From contig JAAXVQ010000015.1 in NCBI GenBank assembly GCA_013335425.1, positions 1-13,935 of the forward strand: a DNA stretch of 13,935 nucleotides. Reading direction: 5' to 3'. Below, piece by piece: positions 1-12,620 of this stretch (the first letter of the stretch is position 1; the number at the start of each line of letters is the position of its first letter). The translations under genes and the position numbers were made by a program. The notes beneath the pieces were generated by a model that saw nothing but the letters and a program-made list of their open reading frames with translations, was not told the origin of the DNA and searched no databases. The DNA comes from Candidatus Firestoneibacteriota bacterium (GTDB lineage: Bacteria; Oederibacteriota; JAAXVQ01).

Positions 1-22
1 GGGGCATGACATGTCATGCCCC
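1..22. repeat. Perfect 22-bp palindrome at the window edge
   Basis: The first 22 bases are a perfect palindrome: the left half GGGGCATGACA is followed by its exact reverse complement. As RNA it would fold into a 9-bp stem with a 4-nt loop. No T-run follows, so it is a poor intrinsic terminator. The arms (GGGGCA / TGCCCC followed by TA) resemble dispersed palindromic repeats between genes in many bacteria. The window starts inside or exactly at the element, so its true left end is unknown. I see no second copy here. Confidence 0.6.
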
Positions 23-77: not shown

Positions 78-106
78 TTGACTTTGCCTTTCGCTTTCCC
101 TATAAT
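78..106 (+). promoter_or_regulatory. Sigma70-type promoter of the arsR-hgcAB operon
   Basis: A -35 box TTGACT (78-83) and a perfect -10 box TATAAT (101-106) are separated by exactly 17 bases. This is the strongest promoter-like sequence in the window. It lies 33 bases upstream of the arsR start, which allows a short leader. The -10 box overlaps the inverted repeat at 103-126, the usual arrangement for an ArsR-family repressor that blocks RNA polymerase. Confidence 0.82.
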
Positions 107-126
107 ATAAACATACATTTATATTA
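103..126. promoter_or_regulatory. Probable ArsR operator: 9-6-9 perfect dyad
   Basis: A perfect 9-bp inverted repeat with arms TAATATAAA (103-111) and TTTATATTA (118-126) is separated by CATACA. It overlaps the 3' half of the -10 box and the expected transcription start. AT-rich imperfect dyads of about this size, often containing ATA..AACA-like half sites, are the usual operators of ArsR/SmtB repressors. Its position just upstream of an arsR gene suggests autoregulation of the whole arsR-hgcA-hgcB operon. The dyad is seen directly; binding is inferred. Confidence 0.7.
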
Positions 127-138
127 ACGGGAGTTGAT

Positions 139-528
139 ATGCGCGAAAGTATGCGGTTGCAGGCCTTGTTCCACACGCTCAGTGATGCCAACCGGTTGGG
201 CATTTTGAAATTTATCGGCACCCAAAGCCGTTCGGTTTCCGACGTGGTGGCCGGGGTGAAGCTTTCCCAGCCTTTGGTTTCACATCATTTGAAAGTCCTG
301 CGGGAGCACAAGCTCTTAAAGACCCGCCGTGAAGGGGTTTTTGTTTTTTATGAACTCAATGACCCGCGGATTTTGGAGGCCCTGGGGGTGTTTGCGGAAA
401 TTGCGGCTGAGGTGCAATGTTGCGGAAAGACGGCGCGCATGTTCTGCTGCCCGGACTGGTTTCAAGGCCTCGCCAAGACCAAGCGGCCTGCGGGACGGCT
501 TGTCGTCAAACCTGTGCAAGGAGAATGA
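139..528 (+). CDS. ArsR/SmtB-family metal(loid)-responsive repressor
   Basis: Small winged-helix repressor of 129 residues, the usual ArsR length. The family consists of dimers that release DNA on binding a metal or metalloid. Residues 9-75 hold the domain: DANRLGIL near the N-terminus, the recognition-helix region LSQPLVSHHLKVLREHKLL (42-60), and the beta wing with RREGVFVFYELN (63-74). The classic alpha3 As(III) site (ELCVCDL) is absent: the matching stretch SVSDVVAG has no cysteine. Instead there are two cysteine pairs near the C-terminus, C94-C95 and C103-C104, close to the spacing known for the Acidithiobacillus ferrooxidans ArsR (C95, C96, C102). As(III), Hg(II) or another thiophilic ligand is therefore likely, but unproven. 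The start has GGGAG (129-133) upstream; a second ATG lies four codons in. Its stop is 5 bases before the hgcA start chosen here, and the operator at 103-126 suggests autoregulation. Confidence 0.93.
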   Translation: MRESMRLQALFHTLSDANRLGILKFIGTQSRSVSDVVAGVKLSQPLVSHHLKVLREHKLLKTRREGVFVFYELNDPRILEALGVFAEIAAEVQCCGKTARMFCCPDWFQGLAKTKRPAGRLVVKPVQGE

Positions 529-533
529 TGCCA

Positions 534-1541
534 ATGAAAGCGAACGTTAATCAAGCGGATCAAACCGGAAATGAGCAAGACCAAGGGCGTCTGGCGGAAA
601 TTCCGATTGTGGATGCGGTTTTTACCTTTCGAGACCGGTTTCGTCATTGGGGCTACCGTTGGGGCGTGGGGCGCATGACGGCGGAGGTCACGCCGGGGCT
701 TTATCGGCTGGGATCACCCGACGCGCAATCACCGGTTTTGGTTTCGGCCAATTACCGGATGAGTTTTGACCAATTGCGGCGGGCGCTGGTCGGGCGTGCG
801 GTTTGGATTTTGGTTTTGGACACCAAGGGCATCAATGTCTGGTGCGCGGCGGGGAAGGGGACGTTTGGCACGGAAGAGTTGGTGAGGCGTCTTGACCGGG
901 ACCGCCTGTCGGACGTGGTCACTCACCGTAAGGTGATTGTGCCGCAATTGGGCGCGCCAGGGGTGGCGGCGCATCGGGTTAAGCAATTGTCGGGGTTTAC
1001 GGTGATCTGGGGGCCGGTGCATGTCCGGGACCTTCCGGATTTTCTAGATCGCGGAGAGGCAGCGCCGGAAATGCGCCGCGTCACGTTTACCTTCGCCGAA
1101 CGGGTAGTCCTGGCACCCATGGAGCTGCGTCCCGCCTTTCTGCCGCTTATGGGGGTAGGTGTGGCCGTTGCTTTGGCTGTCGGGTGGAGGTCGGGTGCGG
1201 CGTTTTTCTTGGCCTCAATTTCCGCGCCTGTGGCCATACCGGCCCTGCACGACGCTTTGCCGGGAACTTGGCTTTCGGTTAAGGGGGTTTTTTGGGGGCT
1301 GATCGCTTCGGGAATGGCTGCCTGGGCGTTTTCTGTTTCGGGCTGGCCTCTGCTCGCCTTGGGGTTGTCGGTCACGGCGGTTTCCGCATTTTTAGGTCTA
1401 AATTTCACGGGCTCCACCACCTACACCCCGGTCAACGGCGTTAAGCGGGAAATGAAAGGCATGCTGCCGGGGATTATTTCCGCAGCGGGTTTGGGACTCA
1501 TCTTGTGGGTGGTTATTGCCATACGGAGGTTTTGGGCATGA
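534..1541 (+). CDS. hgcA: HgcA, corrinoid methyltransferase of mercury methylation
   Basis: HgcA is the membrane corrinoid protein thought to transfer a methyl group to Hg(II), forming methylmercury. The 335-residue product has an N-terminal corrinoid-binding domain (about 25-175) related to the CFeSP large subunit. The diagnostic cap helix NVWCAAGKGTFGTEELV starts at residue 101, with C104 as the expected cobalt ligand. A second conserved block, VVTHRKVIVPQLGAPGVAAH, starts at residue 128, followed by SGFTVIWGPV. The C-terminal part (about 200-331) holds four to five hydrophobic membrane segments and the conserved loop GSTTYTPVNGVKREM (293-307). Length and order match known HgcA. AAGGAG at 518-523 could serve ATG 528 or 534; ATG 525 overlaps the arsR stop as ATGA but is too close to the ribosome binding site. 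All options imply coupling to arsR. hgcB starts inside the last codons. I see no defect in any key motif. Confidence 0.97.
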   Translation: MKANVNQADQTGNEQDQGRLAEIPIVDAVFTFRDRFRHWGYRWGVGRMTAEVTPGLYRLGSPDAQSPVLVSANYRMSFDQLRRALVGRAVWILVLDTKGINVWCAAGKGTFGTEELVRRLDRDRLSDVVTHRKVIVPQLGAPGVAAHRVKQLSGFTVIWGPVHVRDLPDFLDRGEAAPEMRRVTFTFAERVVLAPMELRPAFLPLMGVGVAVALAVGWRSGAAFFLASISAPVAIPALHDALPGTWLSVKGVFWGLIASGMAAWAFSVSGWPLLALGLSVTAVSAFLGLNFTGSTTYTPVNGVKREMKGMLPGIISAAGLGLILWVVIAIRRFWA

Positions 1542-1828
1542 GCTACCAAACGCATACGTTAAAATTGGAAATTGCCGAGTGCACGGGTTGCGGGCAGTGC
1601 CTGGAGGTTTGTCCGCATGCGGTTTTTGGCCGGGAGGCGCAGAGCAAACGGGTGAAACTGCTGCATGCGGAACGCTGCATGGAGTGTGGTGCCTGCATGC
1701 GTAATTGCGCTTTTGGGGCCGTCCAAGTGGAAACGGGCGTGGGTTGCGCGGCGGCGCTTATTTCGGGTGCGCTCAACGGCACGGCACCACAGTGCGGTTG
1801 TTCGGGGAAAAAGACGGGCTGCTGTTAA
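1538..1828 (+). CDS. hgcB: HgcB, 2[4Fe-4S] ferredoxin of mercury methylation
   Basis: HgcB is the ferredoxin partner of HgcA, thought to reduce its corrinoid and to help bind or hand over Hg(II). The 96-residue product has two cluster motifs: C15-x2-C18-x2-C21-x3-C25-P and C47-x2-C50-x2-C53-x3-C57. C70 matches the conserved lone cysteine that follows the second cluster in known HgcB. The tail ends in the conserved CC pair (C95-C96). An additional C86-G-C88 lies seven residues before it and gives this protein a more thiol-rich tail than I expect. The start is well set: GGAGGT (1525-1530) is seven bases from ATG 1538, which overlaps the hgcA stop as ATGA. An upstream in-frame start at 1505 lacks such support. 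No clear intrinsic terminator follows. Confidence 0.97.
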   Translation: MSYQTHTLKLEIAECTGCGQCLEVCPHAVFGREAQSKRVKLLHAERCMECGACMRNCAFGAVQVETGVGCAAALISGALNGTAPQCGCSGKKTGCC

Positions 1829-4920: not shown

Positions 4921-6174
4921 GTGGAACAGAAAACCCAGTTTGAGATTTTTCCCAGCAAACATAATCCGCGGGTGACGATTTTAAAAATCAACGGATTTGT
5001 GGACGTAAATGCCGCGCCTGAATTTGACGCCGCGCTGTTGCAATTGAGGAAACAGGAGCGCTTTCGCATATTGCTCGACATGGCCGGCGTAACTTATTTA
5101 AGCTCGGCGGGCATGGGCGTGATTGTGGGCTCTTTGCAGGATTTCCGCGAGCATGAGGACGGCGACATCAAGCTGCTCAATGTCTCGGACAAAATCATGA
5201 AAGTGCTGCAGAGCATCGGCCTGCATTACATGGTCGATTTTTTGGAGACCGAAGCCGCCGTGCTGCGCTGGTCTCCGCGCAAGTTGTTCCTGAATCTGGC
5301 GAGTTTTAGGTTCAGCCTGTTGGACCCGAAAATCGAAAGCGGCCGGCCGTTCAACATCCGGATCGAAGCCTTGAACGAGGACGGCCAGCCCGCAGTCCGT
5401 TATCAGGGGGAACCGCAAGTCTCTGTCAGCGACGGGTTGATTTATCCGAAAGAGCTGAAGGGGTTTGAAGCGGGCGTTTGGGAGGGTACCCTTATGACCA
5501 CGGGCACCGGCGCTTTACGCCTAACGATCCAAGAGGGGGAAAAAGCCAGCTTCCTGAATTTTACGGCCGAAGAACCAAGCCCCAAAGCTCAATTTCCTCG
5601 TGAAGTTGCGTGTAATTTCTGCCGGAGCGCCGCCCGAGCGCGCGGGATGGGGATCTACCGCTGCCAAAATTGCCAGGAGATTTTTTATGTCGACGCCTGG
5701 GCGCATGTGATCACCCTCAAGGGCGGGAGTCCGTTGCCCCCCAAACGTCTGCTGCACAAGACGGTGGAAATAAAAATCAACAGTGACATCAATTATTTGA
5801 CTTCCTTGCGCCGCTTCTTGTCCGGGTTATGTGAACAGGAAAATTTGCCGGAGGCGGCCATCAATGAAACGGTTTTGGCCACCGAGGAAGTCCTGCTGAA
5901 CATTATCGAACACAGCTATGATTTCGACCCGTTGCATGTGATGGACGTGCGGTTGAAAATCCGGCCCGAGCATTTGGAAATCCGGATCCGCGACCGGGGC
6001 AAGCCGTTTGACATTACCCAACATAAAAACCTGTCCCTGCAATCCGTGATTCAAAAAAGGCAAAAAGGCGGCTTGGGTGCGGTGATGATCAATGCTTTGA
6101 TGGATAAGGTCACCTATCGTACTTATAAGCATTACAACCAGTTGGTGATGATCAAATACCGGGTCAACAGCTGA
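4921..6174 (+). CDS. STAS anti-anti-sigma domain fused through a beta domain and zinc ribbon to an RsbW-like serine kinase
   Basis: A 417-residue four-part signalling protein. Residues 1-115 are a STAS domain of the anti-sigma-factor-antagonist type; LSSAGMGV (60-67) includes the likely phosphoserine S62. Residues about 125-218 are a beta-rich, Ig-like segment (FNIRIEALNEDG ... VWEGTLMTTGTGALRLTI). Residues 231-251 form a four-cysteine zinc ribbon: C231-x2-C234 and C248-x2-C251. Residues 282-417 are a GHKL ATPase of the HATPase_c_2/RsbW type, with N-box EEVLLNIIEHS (E322/E323, N327), DRGKPFD (358-364) and the glycine loop KGGLGAVMI (382-390). In Spo/Rsb switches the kinase and the STAS antagonist are separate proteins acting in opposition; here both are in one chain. 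Sigma factor or other client unknown. Start GTG with AGGGGA four bases upstream. It ends 22 bases from a convergent gene. Confidence 0.88.
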   Translation: MEQKTQFEIFPSKHNPRVTILKINGFVDVNAAPEFDAALLQLRKQERFRILLDMAGVTYLSSAGMGVIVGSLQDFREHEDGDIKLLNVSDKIMKVLQSIGLHYMVDFLETEAAVLRWSPRKLFLNLASFRFSLLDPKIESGRPFNIRIEALNEDGQPAVRYQGEPQVSVSDGLIYPKELKGFEAGVWEGTLMTTGTGALRLTIQEGEKASFLNFTAEEPSPKAQFPREVACNFCRSAARARGMGIYRCQNCQEIFYVDAWAHVITLKGGSPLPPKRLLHKTVEIKINSDINYLTSLRRFLSGLCEQENLPEAAINETVLATEEVLLNIIEHSYDFDPLHVMDVRLKIRPEHLEIRIRDRGKPFDITQHKNLSLQSVIQKRQKGGLGAVMINALMDKVTYRTYKHYNQLVMIKYRVNS

Positions 6175-6824: not shown

Positions 6825-7403
6825 ATGCCCGTGGACAAGACTCAAGCCAGCATACGCGCGGTCGCTTTTTTAGGCGCGAAAAAGTGGATTATGACAAAGT
6901 ATGGTGAAAAAATATATAAGGAATTCTTAAGCAAATATCCCGACCTTGCCGTCGTTATTGAACGGAAAGGGCTTCTCCCTGTATCTTGGCTGCCTATGAA
7001 AGATTTTAATGTGCTCGCCAACGCCATTATCGAATTTTTTGGCCAAGGCGGTACCGCCAATTTCCAGGAAATGTGCAAATGGGTGGCGGGTGACGCCCTG
7101 AGTACCACGCTGAAGGTGTTCATGAAATTGGGGACGCCGTCGTTTATTGCCACGGCTTTTCCCGGAACTTTCGCCCATTATTTTACGATAGGAAAATGGA
7201 CCAACCTCCTTATCCAGAGCAAGCGGGTGGAAGGCGAACTTCGGGAAGACAGCAAGGACAACGGTCCGGCCCGCTGCATGGCCACCATGGCCTGGGCTCG
7301 GGGCGCGCTGGAGTATTCGGGCGCGAAGAATTTGATTCAACTCCACCCGGAATGCATTTTCAAAGGCGGCTCCCGGTGTTATTTTGTTTATACTTGGGAC
7401 TAG
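6825..7403 (+). CDS. Protein with V4R-like C-terminal region (copy 1 of a paralogous pair)
   Basis: A 192-residue soluble protein with no signal peptide or membrane segment. I do not recognise a named family with certainty. The C-terminal third ends HPEC-x7-RC-x-F (residues 174-187) with C177 and C185 and a final WD. That recalls the end of V4R (4-vinyl reductase) domains, where a C..G...C.F pattern follows a small-molecule or metal-binding fold, often as the sensor part of regulators; DUF2378/TIGR02265-like proteins are an alternative. It shares VFMKLGTPS (98-106), HYF (118-120), YSGAKN (164-169) and the whole C-terminal motif with the product of 8957-9520, while the N-terminal halves differ. 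There is no DNA-binding domain, so any output must be through a partner. AGGAG (6814-6818) lies six bases before the ATG. The gene ends in a clear terminator and looks monocistronic. Confidence 0.72.
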   Translation: MPVDKTQASIRAVAFLGAKKWIMTKYGEKIYKEFLSKYPDLAVVIERKGLLPVSWLPMKDFNVLANAIIEFFGQGGTANFQEMCKWVAGDALSTTLKVFMKLGTPSFIATAFPGTFAHYFTIGKWTNLLIQSKRVEGELREDSKDNGPARCMATMAWARGALEYSGAKNLIQLHPECIFKGGSRCYFVYTWD

Positions 7404-7552: not shown

Positions 7553-8686
7553 TTAAAGGTTGCTTTTTGAGTTTGAGAAGAATTTAAGCACCAGGCGATC
7601 AACAGCGGATAGATGGAAAAATTGTTCGTGTCGGCTGGTTATGGCGGCATCTTTCCCGAAGGCGCCGTAGGCAACCGGGAGCGTGGAGGAAGCTGCGGTT
7701 GCGATGCCGTCACCCTCGGCATAAGGCGTATAGGTTTCAGGGCTGCTTTTTCCCCGCGGGGGCACAGACATCAATCGGCGCTGGTTTTGCGACCATAGGA
7801 GTTGATGTTTGGTGGCGTATCCCCGGCCGGTCAAATTGAGGATCTTTTCCGGCGTTTTGTTTCGGTCCGACACCGGGGCGGGATGTTGAATGGCCATCAT
7901 GATATTTGCGCCGGTTTTAAGCTGGCGTAGTATAAAATTTATTCGTTCCGGCTCATTCCCCAGGCGGGACATGCCCAGAGAGGTCCAAACGGCCGCGTCT
8001 TTCGGGTTCAGGGGTTTCCGAGTTTCCAAGGAAAAAAGCCAGGGAGATTCCAGACTCGGAAACATTTGATAAGACGAGGGGAAGGTGGAGACGACTGCCG
8101 GGGCCAAAATATGCCGGTTCCAACCCACAGGATCGCCCTGCAAAGCGTACCACATGGCTTGAGACGTGCCTTGGAAGGGCACCCCGGCGAAGACGACCTT
8201 GTCGACCATCCGCAGCCCTTCCCAGCCGGGCGTTTGACCTGAGAACGGTCGGTCGCCGTATTTCAACCAATAAGCTGCAATAACCCCGCCCATACTGTGC
8301 GCGATCAAGTGAAAATTTTGGTGCCCTTGTCGCCGCAACGCGAGTATGAATTTATGCAGTTGTTTGACTTGCTCCAAAAGATCGGCGCGCCAGTCGTAGG
8401 CAAAAGGCACCATCGACCAAGCCGGCAGTTTCTGCTGCATTCGAACCAGAAATCCCTGATAAATATCTTTCGTCAACCCCGGGCCGAGTTTCAGCGCTGC
8501 CAAAAGTCTGTCCGGCACTAAGTCGGGCTTGGACGCCTCGGCTGCCTCCCGCAGGAATGCCAAATCGGTTCTGTCCCAAGGAAAAATTTGAGAGGCTGTC
8601 AGCCAACGCGTGGTTTTAGCCTTGGCGGCTACCAGACGGCTGCCTTTATAGCCGGGTATGAAAATCAGAGTCGCAGGGAAGGGCAC
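7553..8686 (-). CDS. LCAT-like alpha/beta hydrolase (lipase/acyltransferase family)
   Basis: A 377-residue alpha/beta hydrolase of the lecithin:cholesterol acyltransferase-like class. The family motifs are in order: the oxyanion-hole strand LIFIPGYKGSRL (7-18), PFAYDWRADL (94-103, the characteristic YDWR), the nucleophile elbow AHSMGG with S131 (129-134), and GVPFQGT (168-174), a usual landmark. Late in the chain come EGDG with D326 and RHEQFFHLSAV with H353 as the probable third triad member. A catalytic Ser-Asp-His triad is therefore likely intact. Substrate unknown: the family acts on phospholipids or acyl esters. No signal peptide is visible (MPFPATLIFIPG goes straight into strand 1), so a cytoplasmic or peripheral location is expected. 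The start is GTG with AGAGG (complement of 8693-8697) six bases upstream. It lies inverted between the two V4R-like genes. Confidence 0.85.
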   Translation of the reverse strand: MPFPATLIFIPGYKGSRLVAAKAKTTRWLTASQIFPWDRTDLAFLREAAEASKPDLVPDRLLAALKLGPGLTKDIYQGFLVRMQQKLPAWSMVPFAYDWRADLLEQVKQLHKFILALRRQGHQNFHLIAHSMGGVIAAYWLKYGDRPFSGQTPGWEGLRMVDKVVFAGVPFQGTSQAMWYALQGDPVGWNRHILAPAVVSTFPSSYQMFPSLESPWLFSLETRKPLNPKDAAVWTSLGMSRLGNEPERINFILRQLKTGANIMMAIQHPAPVSDRNKTPEKILNLTGRGYATKHQLLWSQNQRRLMSVPPRGKSSPETYTPYAEGDGIATAASSTLPVAYGAFGKDAAITSRHEQFFHLSAVDRLVLKFFSNSKSNL

Positions 8687-8956
8687 GTTGGTCCTCTACT
8701 TGGGAAATTTGGGAAATAGGGATCATACAGGTGACCCCGGAAAAAAAGTATTTAGACATTATAATGGAAAATCGCTCCAGGGCTTAAGATAAAATATTAT
8801 TACAAGAAAGATTTGAGAACTTTTTGTGATTTTTTATTTTCATTTAATTATTTTTCGGCCGGCAGGCACTAGAAGTCAATAAAACCTTGTAAAAACTCAA
8901 ATGGGGATATAAGCTTATAGGGAAGGTTGGTTTCAAGCAACTTCATAGGAGCCAAA
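8687..8956. other. AT-rich intergenic region with a 12-bp palindrome
   Basis: This 270-base gap between the divergent hydrolase and second V4R-like genes is visibly richer in A and T than the flanking genes. No ORF or RNA gene is recognisable. It must hold both genes' promoters. On the plus strand TATAAG (8908-8913) is a -10-like box within the perfect 12-bp palindrome TATAAGCTTATA (8908-8919), 38 bases from the ATG at 8957; the -35 match (TTGTAA, 8887-8892) has poor spacing. On the minus strand a perfect TATAAT is the complement of 8758-8763, with only a weak -35. Confidence 0.4.
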
Positions 8957-9520
8957 ATGGCAGAGGATTCCATCAAAGGCAGCGTTTTACTCGCCATCAA
9001 AGAATACATTCTCAAGGATCAGAAAGAAGCGGGTTACTTGAAGTATTTGCAGGCCTTTTCCCCGGAAGATCAAGTGCTGCTGGATAAGAAATTGGTCGGC
9101 GTGGGGAAGGTGCCTGCGCGGATTTTCGCCCAAAGCGGCGCGACGTGCATGCAGTTGTTCGGCCAGACGGATAAAAAATATTTTCAAAAGGTCATGAGTT
9201 TTGTGGCCGAGGACAACATCAACTCGTTTATGAAGGTTTTTATGCGCCTGGGCAACCCCTCGCTGACTGTTAAAAATGTCCCCTTAATGTGGAAACATTA
9301 CTTTTCAGCCAGTTCGGTGAACATGCTCGAAGTGACGAGCAACAGCGCCAAGGTGCTGGTGGAGGGCGGGGCGCCTTATGGCGAGGCTTTATGCCAGGGC
9401 GTGCTCGGCTTTGGGACCTATGTTGTGGCCTACAGCGGTGGAAAAAATGTTCAGGCCGCTCACCCCGAGTGCATTCACCACGGGGGCGCAAGGTGCTTTT
9501 TTACGGTTTCCTGGGAGTAA
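8957..9520 (+). CDS. Protein with V4R-like C-terminal region (copy 2 of a paralogous pair)
   Basis: A 187-residue soluble protein, diverged paralogue of the 6825-7403 product. Shared blocks appear in the same order and at nearly the same spacing: VFMRLGNPS (94-102), HYF (114-116), YSGGKN (159-164) and the ending HPEC-x7-RC-x-F (169-182) with C172 and C180, then W186-E187. The first 80 residues show little likeness to copy 1, which suggests a conserved core with a variable N-terminus. The C-terminal pattern recalls V4R domains that bind small ligands; ligand and output are unknown. AGGAG (8947-8951) is five bases before ATG 8957, which is preferred to the upstream in-frame start at 8927. A hairpin terminator follows, so the gene seems to be a single unit. 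Confidence 0.72.
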   Translation: MAEDSIKGSVLLAIKEYILKDQKEAGYLKYLQAFSPEDQVLLDKKLVGVGKVPARIFAQSGATCMQLFGQTDKKYFQKVMSFVAEDNINSFMKVFMRLGNPSLTVKNVPLMWKHYFSASSVNMLEVTSNSAKVLVEGGAPYGEALCQGVLGFGTYVVAYSGGKNVQAAHPECIHHGGARCFFTVSWE

Positions 9521-9650: not shown

Positions 9651-12620
9651 ATGTCCGATCTGCAAAAACTCATCGACCGTCTGCGCCAGGCTCCGGAGTA
9701 CGCGTCCCAAGTGGTGCATTACCGGCATCTCCCGGCGGTGAAAGCCGCCTGGCATGCCCTGGACGCGGTTTCCGCGCCCTTGCGCATTGCGCTCAAAGGG
9801 AGCGGTATCGGCAAACTCTACGCCCATCAAGCGCAGGCGTTGGCTCTTTTGGGTACGGGCGAGAACGTAGGCATCACCACCCCCACGGCTTCGGGTAAAA
9901 CGCTCATCTACAATCTCGCGGTGACCGAGGCGCTGTTGGCCGACCCCAAGGCGCATGCGCTGTATCTGTTCCCGCTCAAAGCCCTGGCGCAGGACCAACT
10001 CAAAACTTTGGAAACCTGGTTTGCCTCCTTGGACGCGCTCAATTTGAATGCGGCCATTTACGACGGAGACACACCGGCGGCCGTGCGCGCCAAGCTCAGA
10101 CGCAAGCCGCCGCGCGTGATCATCACCAACCCGGACATGCTGCATTACGGCCTGCTGGCTTTCCCCGAAGCCTGGCGTGAATTTTTTGGGCATTTGAAAT
10201 ACGTGGTGGCCGATGAAGCTCATACCTATCGCGGGGTTTTCGGCTCGCATGCGGCTTTGATCCTGCGCCGTTTGCGTCGGCTCTGCGGAGAGCCCGGGCC
10301 GCAATTCATTGCCAGTTCGGCCACCATGGCCAATGCCGGGGAGTTTTTGCAACAGCTCACGGGGAAAGCCTTTACGCTGGTGGAAACCAGCGGTGCTCCG
10401 CGGGAGGGACGGCACGTGTTGTTCGTCGAACCCACGGGCAGCCCTTACACAGCCGGCGCCGGGCTCCTGCACGAGTGCGTCAACCATCATATCAAAACCA
10501 TTCTCTTTACCAAGTCGCGCAAGATTACGGAACTCATCAGCCTGTGGGTGCAGGAGTCCGCGCCTAAACTGGCCAAGCGGATCGCCTCCTATCGCGCGGG
10601 TTACCTGCCGGAAGAACGGCGCGCCATTGAACAGCGCTTATTCAAAGATGAACTCTCAGCCGTTATTTCCACCAGCGCCCTGGAAGCCGGCATCGACGTG
10701 GGCGGGTTGGATGCCTGCATTTTGGTCGGGTATCCTGGCACCATGATCAGTTTGTGGCAGCGCCTGGGACGCGCCGGGCGCGGCAAGCGCGAGGCGTTGC
10801 TGATTTTGATCGCGCTGCCGGACGCTTTGGACCACTATTACCTGCGCCACCCGGATTTGCTTTTCGGTTCCCGCTTCGAAAATTGCGTGCTGGACCCGGG
10901 CAACCCGCGTCTGTTGGACGAGCACTTGCCCTGCGCCGCGGCCGAAGAACCGCTGACGGCCGGGGATTGGGCGCTTTTCGGCCCCGGGGCCCAAGCGGCG
11001 GCGGCGCGCTTGACCCGCGCAGGGCTTTTGCGCGAAACCGCGACCGGCGATGCCTGGTTTTCCCAACGCAAGCAGCCGCAACGTCTGGTGGACATCCGTT
11101 CGGCCGACGAACCGTATGTTATCAAGTCGGAACGGCGGGGAACCTTGTTGGGGCACGTGGACGCGGCGCGCGTGTTCAAAGAGTGCCACCCTGGGGCTAT
11201 TTACCTGCATGCGGGGCAGACCTATGAGGTCACGGCATTGGATTTGGAAACCCGCACGGTCCTGGTGGCCGAGAGCCGGGCCGATTGGTACACCCAATAC
11301 ACGGCTTCCGAGGAAGTGGAGATTCTGGACCTGGCGCCCGGACAGCTCTGGCGCACGTCGCGGGAAGCCTTTACCTCGGCCTGGGTGCGGGTGCGCGTTA
11401 CGGAAAAAATCGTGGCCTACGAACGTCACCGGGTCCGCGACCAGACGCTGCTCTCCGAGCACAAGCTCAACCTGCCGCCGCGCGTGTTTGAAACCCAGGC
11501 CGTGCTGCTCTCGGTCCCGGACCGTTGGCGGCGCGAGTGTCGGGACCAAGGCCTGGATTTTTCCGGAGGTCTTCACGCCGCCGAGCACGTGCTTATCGCC
11601 GCGCTGCTCACGCAGGTGCTCTGCGAGCGCTGGGATTTGGGCGGGCTCTCCACCCTGGCGCACCCCCAGGTGGATCAACCCTGCATATTTATTTATGACG
11701 GTTACCCCGGGGGCGTGGGTCTGGCGGAGAAAGGCCTGCAAGTCTTGGAAACTTGGGCACGGGCCGCACGCGCCATGGTGGACGAATGCGATTGCGAAGA
11801 CGGCTGCCCCCTGTGCGTGCAGTCCCCCAAGTGCGGCAGCCGCAATCAGCCTCTGGATAAAACAGCCTGTCGTCTGTTGTTGGGCGCCCTGGACCGCCAG
11901 CCCGCGCGCCGCCTGCAGGTCCCTGAACCACCCGCATCTCAAGGAGGCAACATGGCAACCGAAAAACCGGAAAAAATTCAGTCCGCACAGACGACGCCTA
12001 CCCAGGTTTTGTCAGCAGACGTTCAGACGGAAAAACAACCGGCCGCTTTGCCGACCACCCAGGAATTTCGCTGGTTGGTTTTTGACTTGGAGACCCAAAA
12101 AAGCGCGGCCGAGGTGGGGGGGTGGGACAAAGCCCACTTGATGCGCATGTCCGTGGGGGTGGTCTTCGACGGCCTCACCGGCACGTTCCGGCATTACCGC
12201 GAAAACCAGGTGCCGGAGCTTATTCAAGACCTTTTGGCCGCGGATATGGTGGTGGGCTTTAATATCGACGGCTTTGATTTGAAGGTCTTGTCCGGATACA
12301 GCGAGTTTGCCGCCCGTATCCGCACCTTTGACCTGCTCTCCGATATCCGCCAAACTTTGGGTTTTAGGCTCTCTTTGGATCATTTGGGGCAGCATACCCT
12401 GGGGCGGCCCAAAACCGCCGAAGGTCTGCAGGCCTTGGCTTGGTTTGCGGCTGGGAACTGGGCGGATTTGGAAGCCTACTGCCGCGCCGACGTAGAAATT
12501 ACGCGCGATATTTTCCGATTCGGCCTTCAGTTTCACTACTTGCTTTATGAACGCCAGGGGCAGGTGTTGAAACTTCCCGTAGCCTGGCGTGAAGCCTTTC
12601 CCCGGGTGACCGACCGGTAA
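9651..12620 (+). CDS. MrfA-type DEAD/H helicase (DUF1998) fused to a DEDDy 3'-5' exonuclease
   Basis: A 989-residue fusion. Residues 1-760 match the MrfA/YprA superfamily 2 helicase: Q-region AHQAQAL (58-64), Walker A TPTASGKT (77-84), Walker B DEAH (188-191), motif III SAT (223-225), ALEAGIDVGGLD (343-354) and motif VI QRLGRAGR (370-377). A DUF1998-type zinc site follows, with C713, C715, C719, C722 and C728. MrfA is a 3'-5' DNA helicase in mitomycin C repair in Bacillus subtilis. After a low-complexity linker (about 760-803), residues 806-975 form an RNase H-like exonuclease: FDLET with D812 and E814, NIDGFD (871-876) with D876, and YCRAD (943-947) with Y943 and D947, i.e. a complete DEDDy set. 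The best functional parallel is MrfB/YprB, the nuclease partner encoded beside mrfA in Bacillus. GAGGT (9641-9645) precedes the ATG. An internal ribosome binding site and ATG lie at the domain border (11941-11954). Confidence 0.92.
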   Translation: MSDLQKLIDRLRQAPEYASQVVHYRHLPAVKAAWHALDAVSAPLRIALKGSGIGKLYAHQAQALALLGTGENVGITTPTASGKTLIYNLAVTEALLADPKAHALYLFPLKALAQDQLKTLETWFASLDALNLNAAIYDGDTPAAVRAKLRRKPPRVIITNPDMLHYGLLAFPEAWREFFGHLKYVVADEAHTYRGVFGSHAALILRRLRRLCGEPGPQFIASSATMANAGEFLQQLTGKAFTLVETSGAPREGRHVLFVEPTGSPYTAGAGLLHECVNHHIKTILFTKSRKITELISLWVQESAPKLAKRIASYRAGYLPEERRAIEQRLFKDELSAVISTSALEAGIDVGGLDACILVGYPGTMISLWQRLGRAGRGKREALLILIALPDALDHYYLRHPDLLFGSRFENCVLDPGNPRLLDEHLPCAAAEEPLTAGDWALFGPGAQAAAARLTRAGLLRETATGDAWFSQRKQPQRLVDIRSADEPYVIKSERRGTLLGHVDAARVFKECHPGAIYLHAGQTYEVTALDLETRTVLVAESRADWYTQYTASEEVEILDLAPGQLWRTSREAFTSAWVRVRVTEKIVAYERHRVRDQTLLSEHKLNLPPRVFETQAVLLSVPDRWRRECRDQGLDFSGGLHAAEHVLIAALLTQVLCERWDLGGLSTLAHPQVDQPCIFIYDGYPGGVGLAEKGLQVLETWARAARAMVDECDCEDGCPLCVQSPKCGSRNQPLDKTACRLLLGALDRQPARRLQVPEPPASQGGNMATEKPEKIQSAQTTPTQVLSADVQTEKQPAALPTTQEFRWLVFDLETQKSAAEVGGWDKAHLMRMSVGVVFDGLTGTFRHYRENQVPELIQDLLAADMVVGFNIDGFDLKVLSGYSEFAARIRTFDLLSDIRQTLGFRLSLDHLGQHTLGRPKTAEGLQALAWFAAGNWADLEAYCRADVEITRDIFRFGLQFHYLLYERQGQVLKLPVAWREAFPRVTDR
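11941..11954 (+). promoter_or_regulatory. Internal ribosome binding site and in-frame ATG before the exonuclease domain
   Basis: AAGGAGG (11941-11947) lies four bases before an in-frame ATG (11952-11954, codon 768 of the fusion), exactly at the border between the helicase and the linker of the exonuclease. Initiation here would give a 222-residue stand-alone exonuclease (to 12620). Either the gene makes two products, or this is the relic of a separate second gene that fused by loss of the upstream stop. The signal is stronger than that of the annotated start at 9651. Confidence 0.55.

Follow-up and report, generated by a model that had tools for sequence, protein, structure and literature searches.

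We analyzed a 13,935-nucleotide stretch of DNA (the window) from a Candidatus Firestoneibacteriota bacterium, which is contig C177 of a 2.59-Mb host genome in 525 contigs. Its plus strand carries three intact genes in line, arsR, hgcA and hgcB (Table 1). A first-pass annotation made from the sequence had placed a complete arsR-hgcA-hgcB operon at positions 139-1828, and both the coordinates and the integrity of all three genes are borne out. No Rfam family was found in the window at gathering score.

Table 1. Features of the operon region and contig end.
Feature	Position	Strand	Remarks
Sigma-70-like promoter TTGACT-N17-TATAAT	78..106	+	Consensus matched at 11 of 12 positions
Candidate ArsR operator, perfect inverted repeat TAATATAAA-CATACA-TTTATATTA	103..126		9-bp arms; overlaps the -10 box
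arsR	139..528	+	ArsR/SmtB-type regulator, 129 aa; TGA at 526-528; cysteines 94, 95, 103, 104
Shine-Dalgarno-like AAGGAG for hgcA	518..523	+	Within the arsR tail; read from sequence
hgcA	525..1541	+	Mercury-methylation corrinoid protein; possible starts 525, 528, 534; stop 1539-1541; cap-helix Cys codon 843-845
Shine-Dalgarno-like GGAGG for hgcB	1525..1529	+	Within hgcA, 8 nt before the hgcB ATG; read from sequence
hgcB	1538..1828	+	Mercury-methylation 2[4Fe-4S] ferredoxin, 96 aa; C-terminal vicinal Cys95-Cys96
Perfect 22-bp palindrome GGGGCATGACATGTCATGCCCC	1..22		Contig end, outside the operon

The hgcA frame has ATG codons at 525 (where it overlaps the arsR stop as ATGA), 528 and 534, which lie 1, 4 and 10 nt respectively from AAGGAG. 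Because the spacing to ATG525 is only 1 nt, a start at ATG528 or ATG534 is no less likely, and the protein database entry P0001 (335 aa) also takes ATG534. Both junctions had been described as lying at or near stop/start overlaps. This holds for hgcA-hgcB, where the hgcB ATG at 1538 overlaps the hgcA stop as ATGA; at arsR-hgcA there is a 4-nt overlap only if hgcA starts at ATG525. Translational coupling of the three genes is plausible. Coupling in a fixed ratio, as had been claimed, does not follow, since a separate Shine-Dalgarno-like sequence precedes each of the two methylation genes and an overlap alone fixes no ratio.

HgcA, HgcB and their host

Both methylation proteins pass the curated NCBIfam equivalog models, a check suggested in the first-pass annotation. 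HgcA scores 365.8 bits with NF040863 (cut-off 275, E = 1.9e-109) and HgcB 105.4 bits with NF040864 (cut-off 99). ArsR passes the ArsR/SmtB subfamily model NF033788 (76.9 bits, cut-off 55) and has a winged-helix HTH_5 domain (PF01022, 41.5 bits, cut-off 22). As sequence matches, the scores of all three proteins are far beyond chance. The HgcA motifs noted earlier, GINVWCAAGK, PQLGAPGVAAH and GSTTYTPVNGVKREM, are all present in frame. The cap-helix motif N(V/I)WCAAGK with its corrinoid-binding cysteine occurs as GINVWCAAGKGTFGTEE; the cysteine is residue 104, as first numbered, when counted from ATG534, and residue 107 from ATG525. In a 23-row HgcA alignment N101-C104 and A106-T110 are invariant and A105 is nearly so. 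Known HgcA proteins have a C-terminal membrane domain with five transmembrane helices, and a hydropathy scan of the window protein gave about four merged hydrophobic blocks between residues 196 and 335. HgcB has cysteines at 15, 18, 21, 25, 47, 50, 53, 57, 70, 86, 88, 95 and 96. These comprise the pattern previously described for it, with two CxxCxxCxxxC clusters (15/18/21/25 and 47/50/53/57) and the C-terminal pair 95/96, all in frame, and a further cysteine at 70.

Could a decayed corrinoid protein, or one of the type found in the corrinoid iron-sulfur protein (CFeSP/CdhD), have been misread as HgcA? The Pfam domain name for HgcA is CdhD (PF03599, 32.8 bits), and the three solved structures similar to it in sequence are all CFeSP subunits, large or gamma. 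However, the CFeSP gamma model gives just 62.4 bits against 365.8 for the HgcA model, and hgcA has no internal stops. A tree of HgcA, also proposed earlier, was calculated from 78 rows, being 77 of 150 rows hand-picked for spread plus one CFeSP row; the rows left out included the HgcA-like row of genome G011 and P0003, a duplicate of that of the same-genus genome G001. The CFeSP row is the outgroup on a very long branch, and the window protein groups with HgcA, not among CdhD/CFeSP proteins. As far as sequence can show, the misreading is refuted, and we regard it as extremely improbable. The HgcA-like frame of G011 (L166, G011:C124:4687-5619) has NVWCSSGKGKFS instead of NVWCAAGKGTFG and reaches 165.4 bits where the HgcA cut-off is 275. 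It is possibly a divergent HgcA paralogue.

The host lineage was placed using RpoB. The RpoB of G001 matches the fragment of the host at 93%. It matches P0125 at 80% and P0132 at 78%, both named 'candidate division FCPU426 bacterium', and these are about as near as its order mates G004 (79%) and G005 (78%). By this measure the host is related to candidate division FCPU426 (Ca. Luxamiota) at about order level. An Elusimicrobia host, suggested by the names of some HgcA matches, was rejected; G001 RpoB is 49% to the one Elusimicrobia genome compared, against 78-80% to the FCPU426 proteins. In the accessible text of a review, FCPU426 is listed as Ca. Luxamiota (PMC11382960). That review was the only place where hgcA and FCPU426 were found together, hgcA being in the title of a reference, in a search that covered mostly papers available without subscription. 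Candidatus Firestonebacteria and WOR groups appear as putative methylators in the available part of PMC7438021. Within the phylum of the host, 16 of 45 genomes have HgcA above the curated cut-off, and an HgcB match lies beside hgcA in all 17 phylum loci, including the window.

In the tree the window HgcA, the same-genus HgcA and other proteins make up a clade of 11 rows (100/99), which is sister to HgcA of Chloroflexota and methanogens (99/78, not starred). The HgcA of the order mates G004 and G005 is placed elsewhere. A single clade of window, G001, G004 and G005 was rejected (p-AU = 1e-8), as was one clade of all 17 phylum rows (p-AU = 1e-66), in tests set up after a tree had been inspected. 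The phylum HgcA occupies five separate places: the window with G001, G004 with G005, f7 with f10, G009, and f12 with f3, the last union being at 84/90 and unstarred. Six state changes were counted as against five places, because P0002 and P0004 stand between the window and G001. Given that the phylum HgcA falls in separate places, hgcA has moved between lineages. Such transfer is known for this gene.

Promoter, candidate operator and arsenic-gene setting

The region before arsR has a sigma-70-like promoter whose -10 box is overlapped by a perfect inverted repeat (Table 1). In positions 1-2400 there are three promoter-like sites where 1.1 are expected from shuffles, and the other two score 9/12. 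Dinucleotide shuffling of 61-138, a stretch picked after the repeat was noticed, gave inverted-repeat arms of at least 9 in 4 of 2000 trials; of 600 overlapping pieces of 138 bases covering the whole window, 5 have such arms, the operator region's own piece included. Judged from its sequence, the region 78-126 has the anatomy of an autoregulated ArsR operon, and the inverted repeat is likely to be the operator at which ArsR would bind. In a survey of 21 arsR regions, counted without a shuffle control, some of the 20 others (mostly hgcA-linked) show an AT-rich inverted repeat that precedes the start by 31-65 bases, for example L030, L031, L104 and L049. Others have only weak repeats, and none was found in L032 and L114. 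A wider ArsR regulon was rejected, as the operator occurs only once in the genome even when up to 3 mismatches are allowed.

The linkage of arsR to hgcA probably extends beyond this contig. An ArsR relative (P0243, 64%) and an HgcA relative (P0004, 61%) are each listed on a contig of 523,349 bases, very probably the same one. The same-genus contig of G001 breaks 40 bases before the hgcA frame. Those bases encode FRETFK-stop, resembling the ArsR tails DWFRKAFK and DWFKRKYK, and a likeness over six residues is no more than suggestive. Elsewhere in G001 no close ArsR relative was found, the best being 36%. Taking loci from all sources, an ArsR-type gene lies directly before hgcA in a minority. 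HTH_5 matches were found in 16 of 86 upstream proteins (85 of 97 loci, window included), and the same 86 include 20 MarR and 10 MazE proteins.

Within the phylum the arsenic-gene setting is consistent. The sample comprises 17 hgcA loci, of which two (G001 and G035) are cut off directly upstream, leaving 15 eligible; the window was counted among these although its upstream room of 410 is below the 500 asked of other loci. In 14/15 loci (13/14 without the window) the 4.2 kb upstream of hgcA hold an ars-type gene on its strand, and G008 has no ars-type gene within that distance. In 11/15 an acr3, arsC or ArsP-type gene lies within 4.2 kb. The gene orders include arsR-acr3-hgcA-hgcB (G005), arsR-arsC-hgcA-hgcB (G022), acr3-arsC-ArsP-type-hgcA-hgcB (G025) and arsR-hgcA-hgcB (G029 and the window), and in G009 acr3 is directly behind hgcB. 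One genome, G020, has two hgcA copies (L028 and L029), each behind a separate arsR-acr3 pair (arsR-acr3-hgcA). Five upstream genes pass the curated ACR3 model with scores of 377.7-447.3 (cut-off 282.8). The G004 arsC is below its curated cut-off (159.7 against 174.3), the G025 ArsP-type gene is below the cut-off of the efflux models that it matched, and the other arsC and ArsP-type calls rest on phmmer matches to prototypes.

For comparison we took named loci, the best 80 of at least 582 confirmed, a sample near the window HgcA; five with less than 500 bp upstream were left out, giving 75. Any ars-type gene within 4.2 kb, on either strand or side, was found in 24/75, or at least 25 once the arsR of L049 is added. 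Same-strand upstream ars-type genes were found in 15/75, and acr3, arsC or ArsP-type genes in 15/75. The difference between phylum and named loci has a Fisher p of 1e-5, which overstates independence as the rows are related, and the comparison favours the phylum because the ACR3, ArsC and ArsP prototypes were taken from same-phylum loci.

Ligand of the regulator and proposed function

We consider it likely that the window holds an ArsR-repressed, probably arsenic-inducible arsR-hgcA-hgcB operon whose products methylate Hg(II). By analogy with known HgcAB and ArsR biology, ArsR would sit on the inverted repeat over the -10 box as an autorepressor of the operon. Release would follow when its C-terminal cysteines bind a thiophilic ligand, of which As(III) is the likeliest. 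HgcA is predicted to be a membrane-anchored protein whose cap-helix cysteine binds the corrinoid; it would accept a methyl group, with the methyl-tetrahydrofolate pool as the probable source, and pass it to Hg(II). HgcB would re-reduce the corrinoid, and may hand over Hg(II) via its C-terminal cysteines. It is a fair inference that the host is a probable methylmercury producer.

The sole CdhD-type match in the host and in a 99%-complete genus mate is HgcA itself, so that no CFeSP was found in either. Methylenetetrahydrofolate reductase (MTHFR) and pterin-binding domains are present in both, which points to methyl-tetrahydrofolate as the likely methyl source. The pterin-binding family PF00809 also covers dihydropteroate synthase; an 815-aa pterin-binding frame in G001 looks like MetH.

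A number of observations weigh against the operon working in this way. The host assembly of 525 contigs reaches 84% completeness, and CobS, present in the genus mate, was not found in it. The candidate operator is a single site. In the parts of the literature available, arsR was on 0/35 hgcAB contigs (PMC10349881), and the arsR genes of metagenome-assembled genomes were not close to hgcAB (PMC12953829). ArsR is below the cut-off of every named sensor equivalog listed, the nearest being TsoR (83.5 bits against 115). In an alignment of 18 ArsR members, window included, chosen from 130 matches, an MFCCPxW tail tends to be common. There the Cys103/104 pair is kept in 14/18 (the exceptions being P0257, P0262, P0316 and P0333), and the Cys94/95 pair in just 4/18.

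The assignment of As(III) as the ligand is a guess from the context and not from the protein, because ArsR passes none of those sensor models. The classical As(III) site of ArsR is a CxC in the N-terminal half. No such motif is present in this half of the window protein, and all four of its cysteines are C-terminal. Given that C-terminal As(III) sites occur in other ArsR proteins, arsenic could still be the ligand. Alternatively the hgcAB pair is real and the inducer is something else, such as reactive sulfur species, Hg(II) or Zn(II). TsoR as the best named equivalog, albeit below cut-off, would fit with this, as would the SmtB and CzrA-type repressors that are the best sequence matches of ArsR among solved structures. 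The window itself has arsR alone, and 9/24 ars-positive named loci have an ArsR-type gene with no acr3, arsC or ArsP-type gene within 4.2 kb. On the other hand such genes do lie within that distance of hgcA in 11/15 eligible loci of the same phylum, and a response to arsenic is published for the ND132 regulator (PMC10349881, in its available text). On balance we think a non-arsenic inducer somewhat unlikely, and continue to favour arsenic.

The setting also bears on what HgcAB does. The pair might serve mainly for another methyl transfer, on a native substrate that is perhaps an arsenic or thiol compound, with Hg(II) methylation as a side reaction or absent. In keeping with that, phylum members at five distinct points of the HgcA tree have arsenic genes near hgcAB. 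Yet HgcA and HgcB here carry their diagnostic motifs and pass their curated models, and mercury methylation is the known activity of such pairs, so we judge another main substrate to be unlikely. A related idea is that hgcAB of this phylum is in effect an arsenic-response module, found as it is in arsR/acr3/arsC/ArsP-type clusters at five HgcA-tree places, with the long-sought native role of HgcAB tied to arsenic. We put this forward as a speculation that is probably wrong; if it were true, arsenic exposure, not mercury, would set the timing of methylmercury production in these bacteria.

Our preferred reading remains an arsenic-inducible operon for Hg(II) methylation. The hgcAB pair is a marker for methylmercury production, and little is known of the natural signals that switch it on. 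With its recognisable promoter and candidate operator, the compact arsR-led hgcAB operon of the window makes arsenic control of methylmercury production testable in a concrete case, and its FCPU426-related host is added to the probable methylators. Of these findings, the arsenic-gene setting throughout the phylum most deserves to be followed up.

Other features and comparison with known systems

Several other features lie in the window. The terminal palindrome GGGGCATGACATGTCATGCCCC occurs 6 times in the genome when up to 2 mismatches are allowed (0 for a reversed-pattern control); it is a dispersed repeat and may be what broke the assembly. In the protein encoded at 4921-6174, residues 13-111 form a STAS domain and residues 287-412 an RsbW-like kinase domain, so that by its domains it would combine an anti-sigma antagonist and its type of kinase on one chain. 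Two proteins of about 195 aa (6825-7403 and 8927-9520) share a C-terminal HPECI-x-x-GG-x-RC pattern and have no Pfam match at 0.001; they resemble V4R-type small-molecule sensors and may be such. Their genes flank an LCAT-like gene on the minus strand (7553-8686). The gene at 9651-12620 encodes a 989-aa DEAH helicase that is TIGR03817-like (711.4 bits, cut-off 874.1), with an MrfA Zn-binding domain. It extends about 240 residues past the helicase match, a tail that resembles, and may be, a 3'-5' exonuclease domain.

Among known HgcA proteins, those of Chloroflexota and methanogens form the sister clade of the window HgcA. They share one of its two membrane-domain gaps (alignment A1), a gap also present in Elusimicrobial rows. 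Yet the window HgcA is just 47% identical to P0086 (Methanoregula), P0104 (Chloroflexi) and P0029. The archaeal hgcA loci differ too in their setting, in that at least 5/9 have a MazE-type gene upstream (L048, the prototype, L077, L090, L092 and L101) and not arsR.

The link of arsR with hgcAB and the proximity of ars genes are already published, and the window is a further instance in a little-known host lineage. In the accessible portions of these papers arsR is found upstream of hgcAB (PMC7438021, PMC10349881), a link credited there to Goni-Urriza 2020 and Gionfriddo 2023. The closest functional parallel is in Pseudodesulfovibrio mercurii ND132 and other Desulfovibrio-type methylators, with an ArsR-like regulator reported for ND132 that controls hgcAB and responds to arsenic (PMC10349881, available text). 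ND132 belongs to another phylum than the host. The window differs further in its proposed sigma-70-like promoter with an overlapping inverted repeat. McDaniel et al. 2020 described hgcAB regions flanked by acr3, arsC, arsR or arsM (PMC7438021, likewise in part), so that arsenic genes adjoin hgcAB in diverse genomes there as here. What is added here is the consistency of the link within one phylum, in 14/15 eligible loci and across five places of the HgcA tree, with the window having arsR only.
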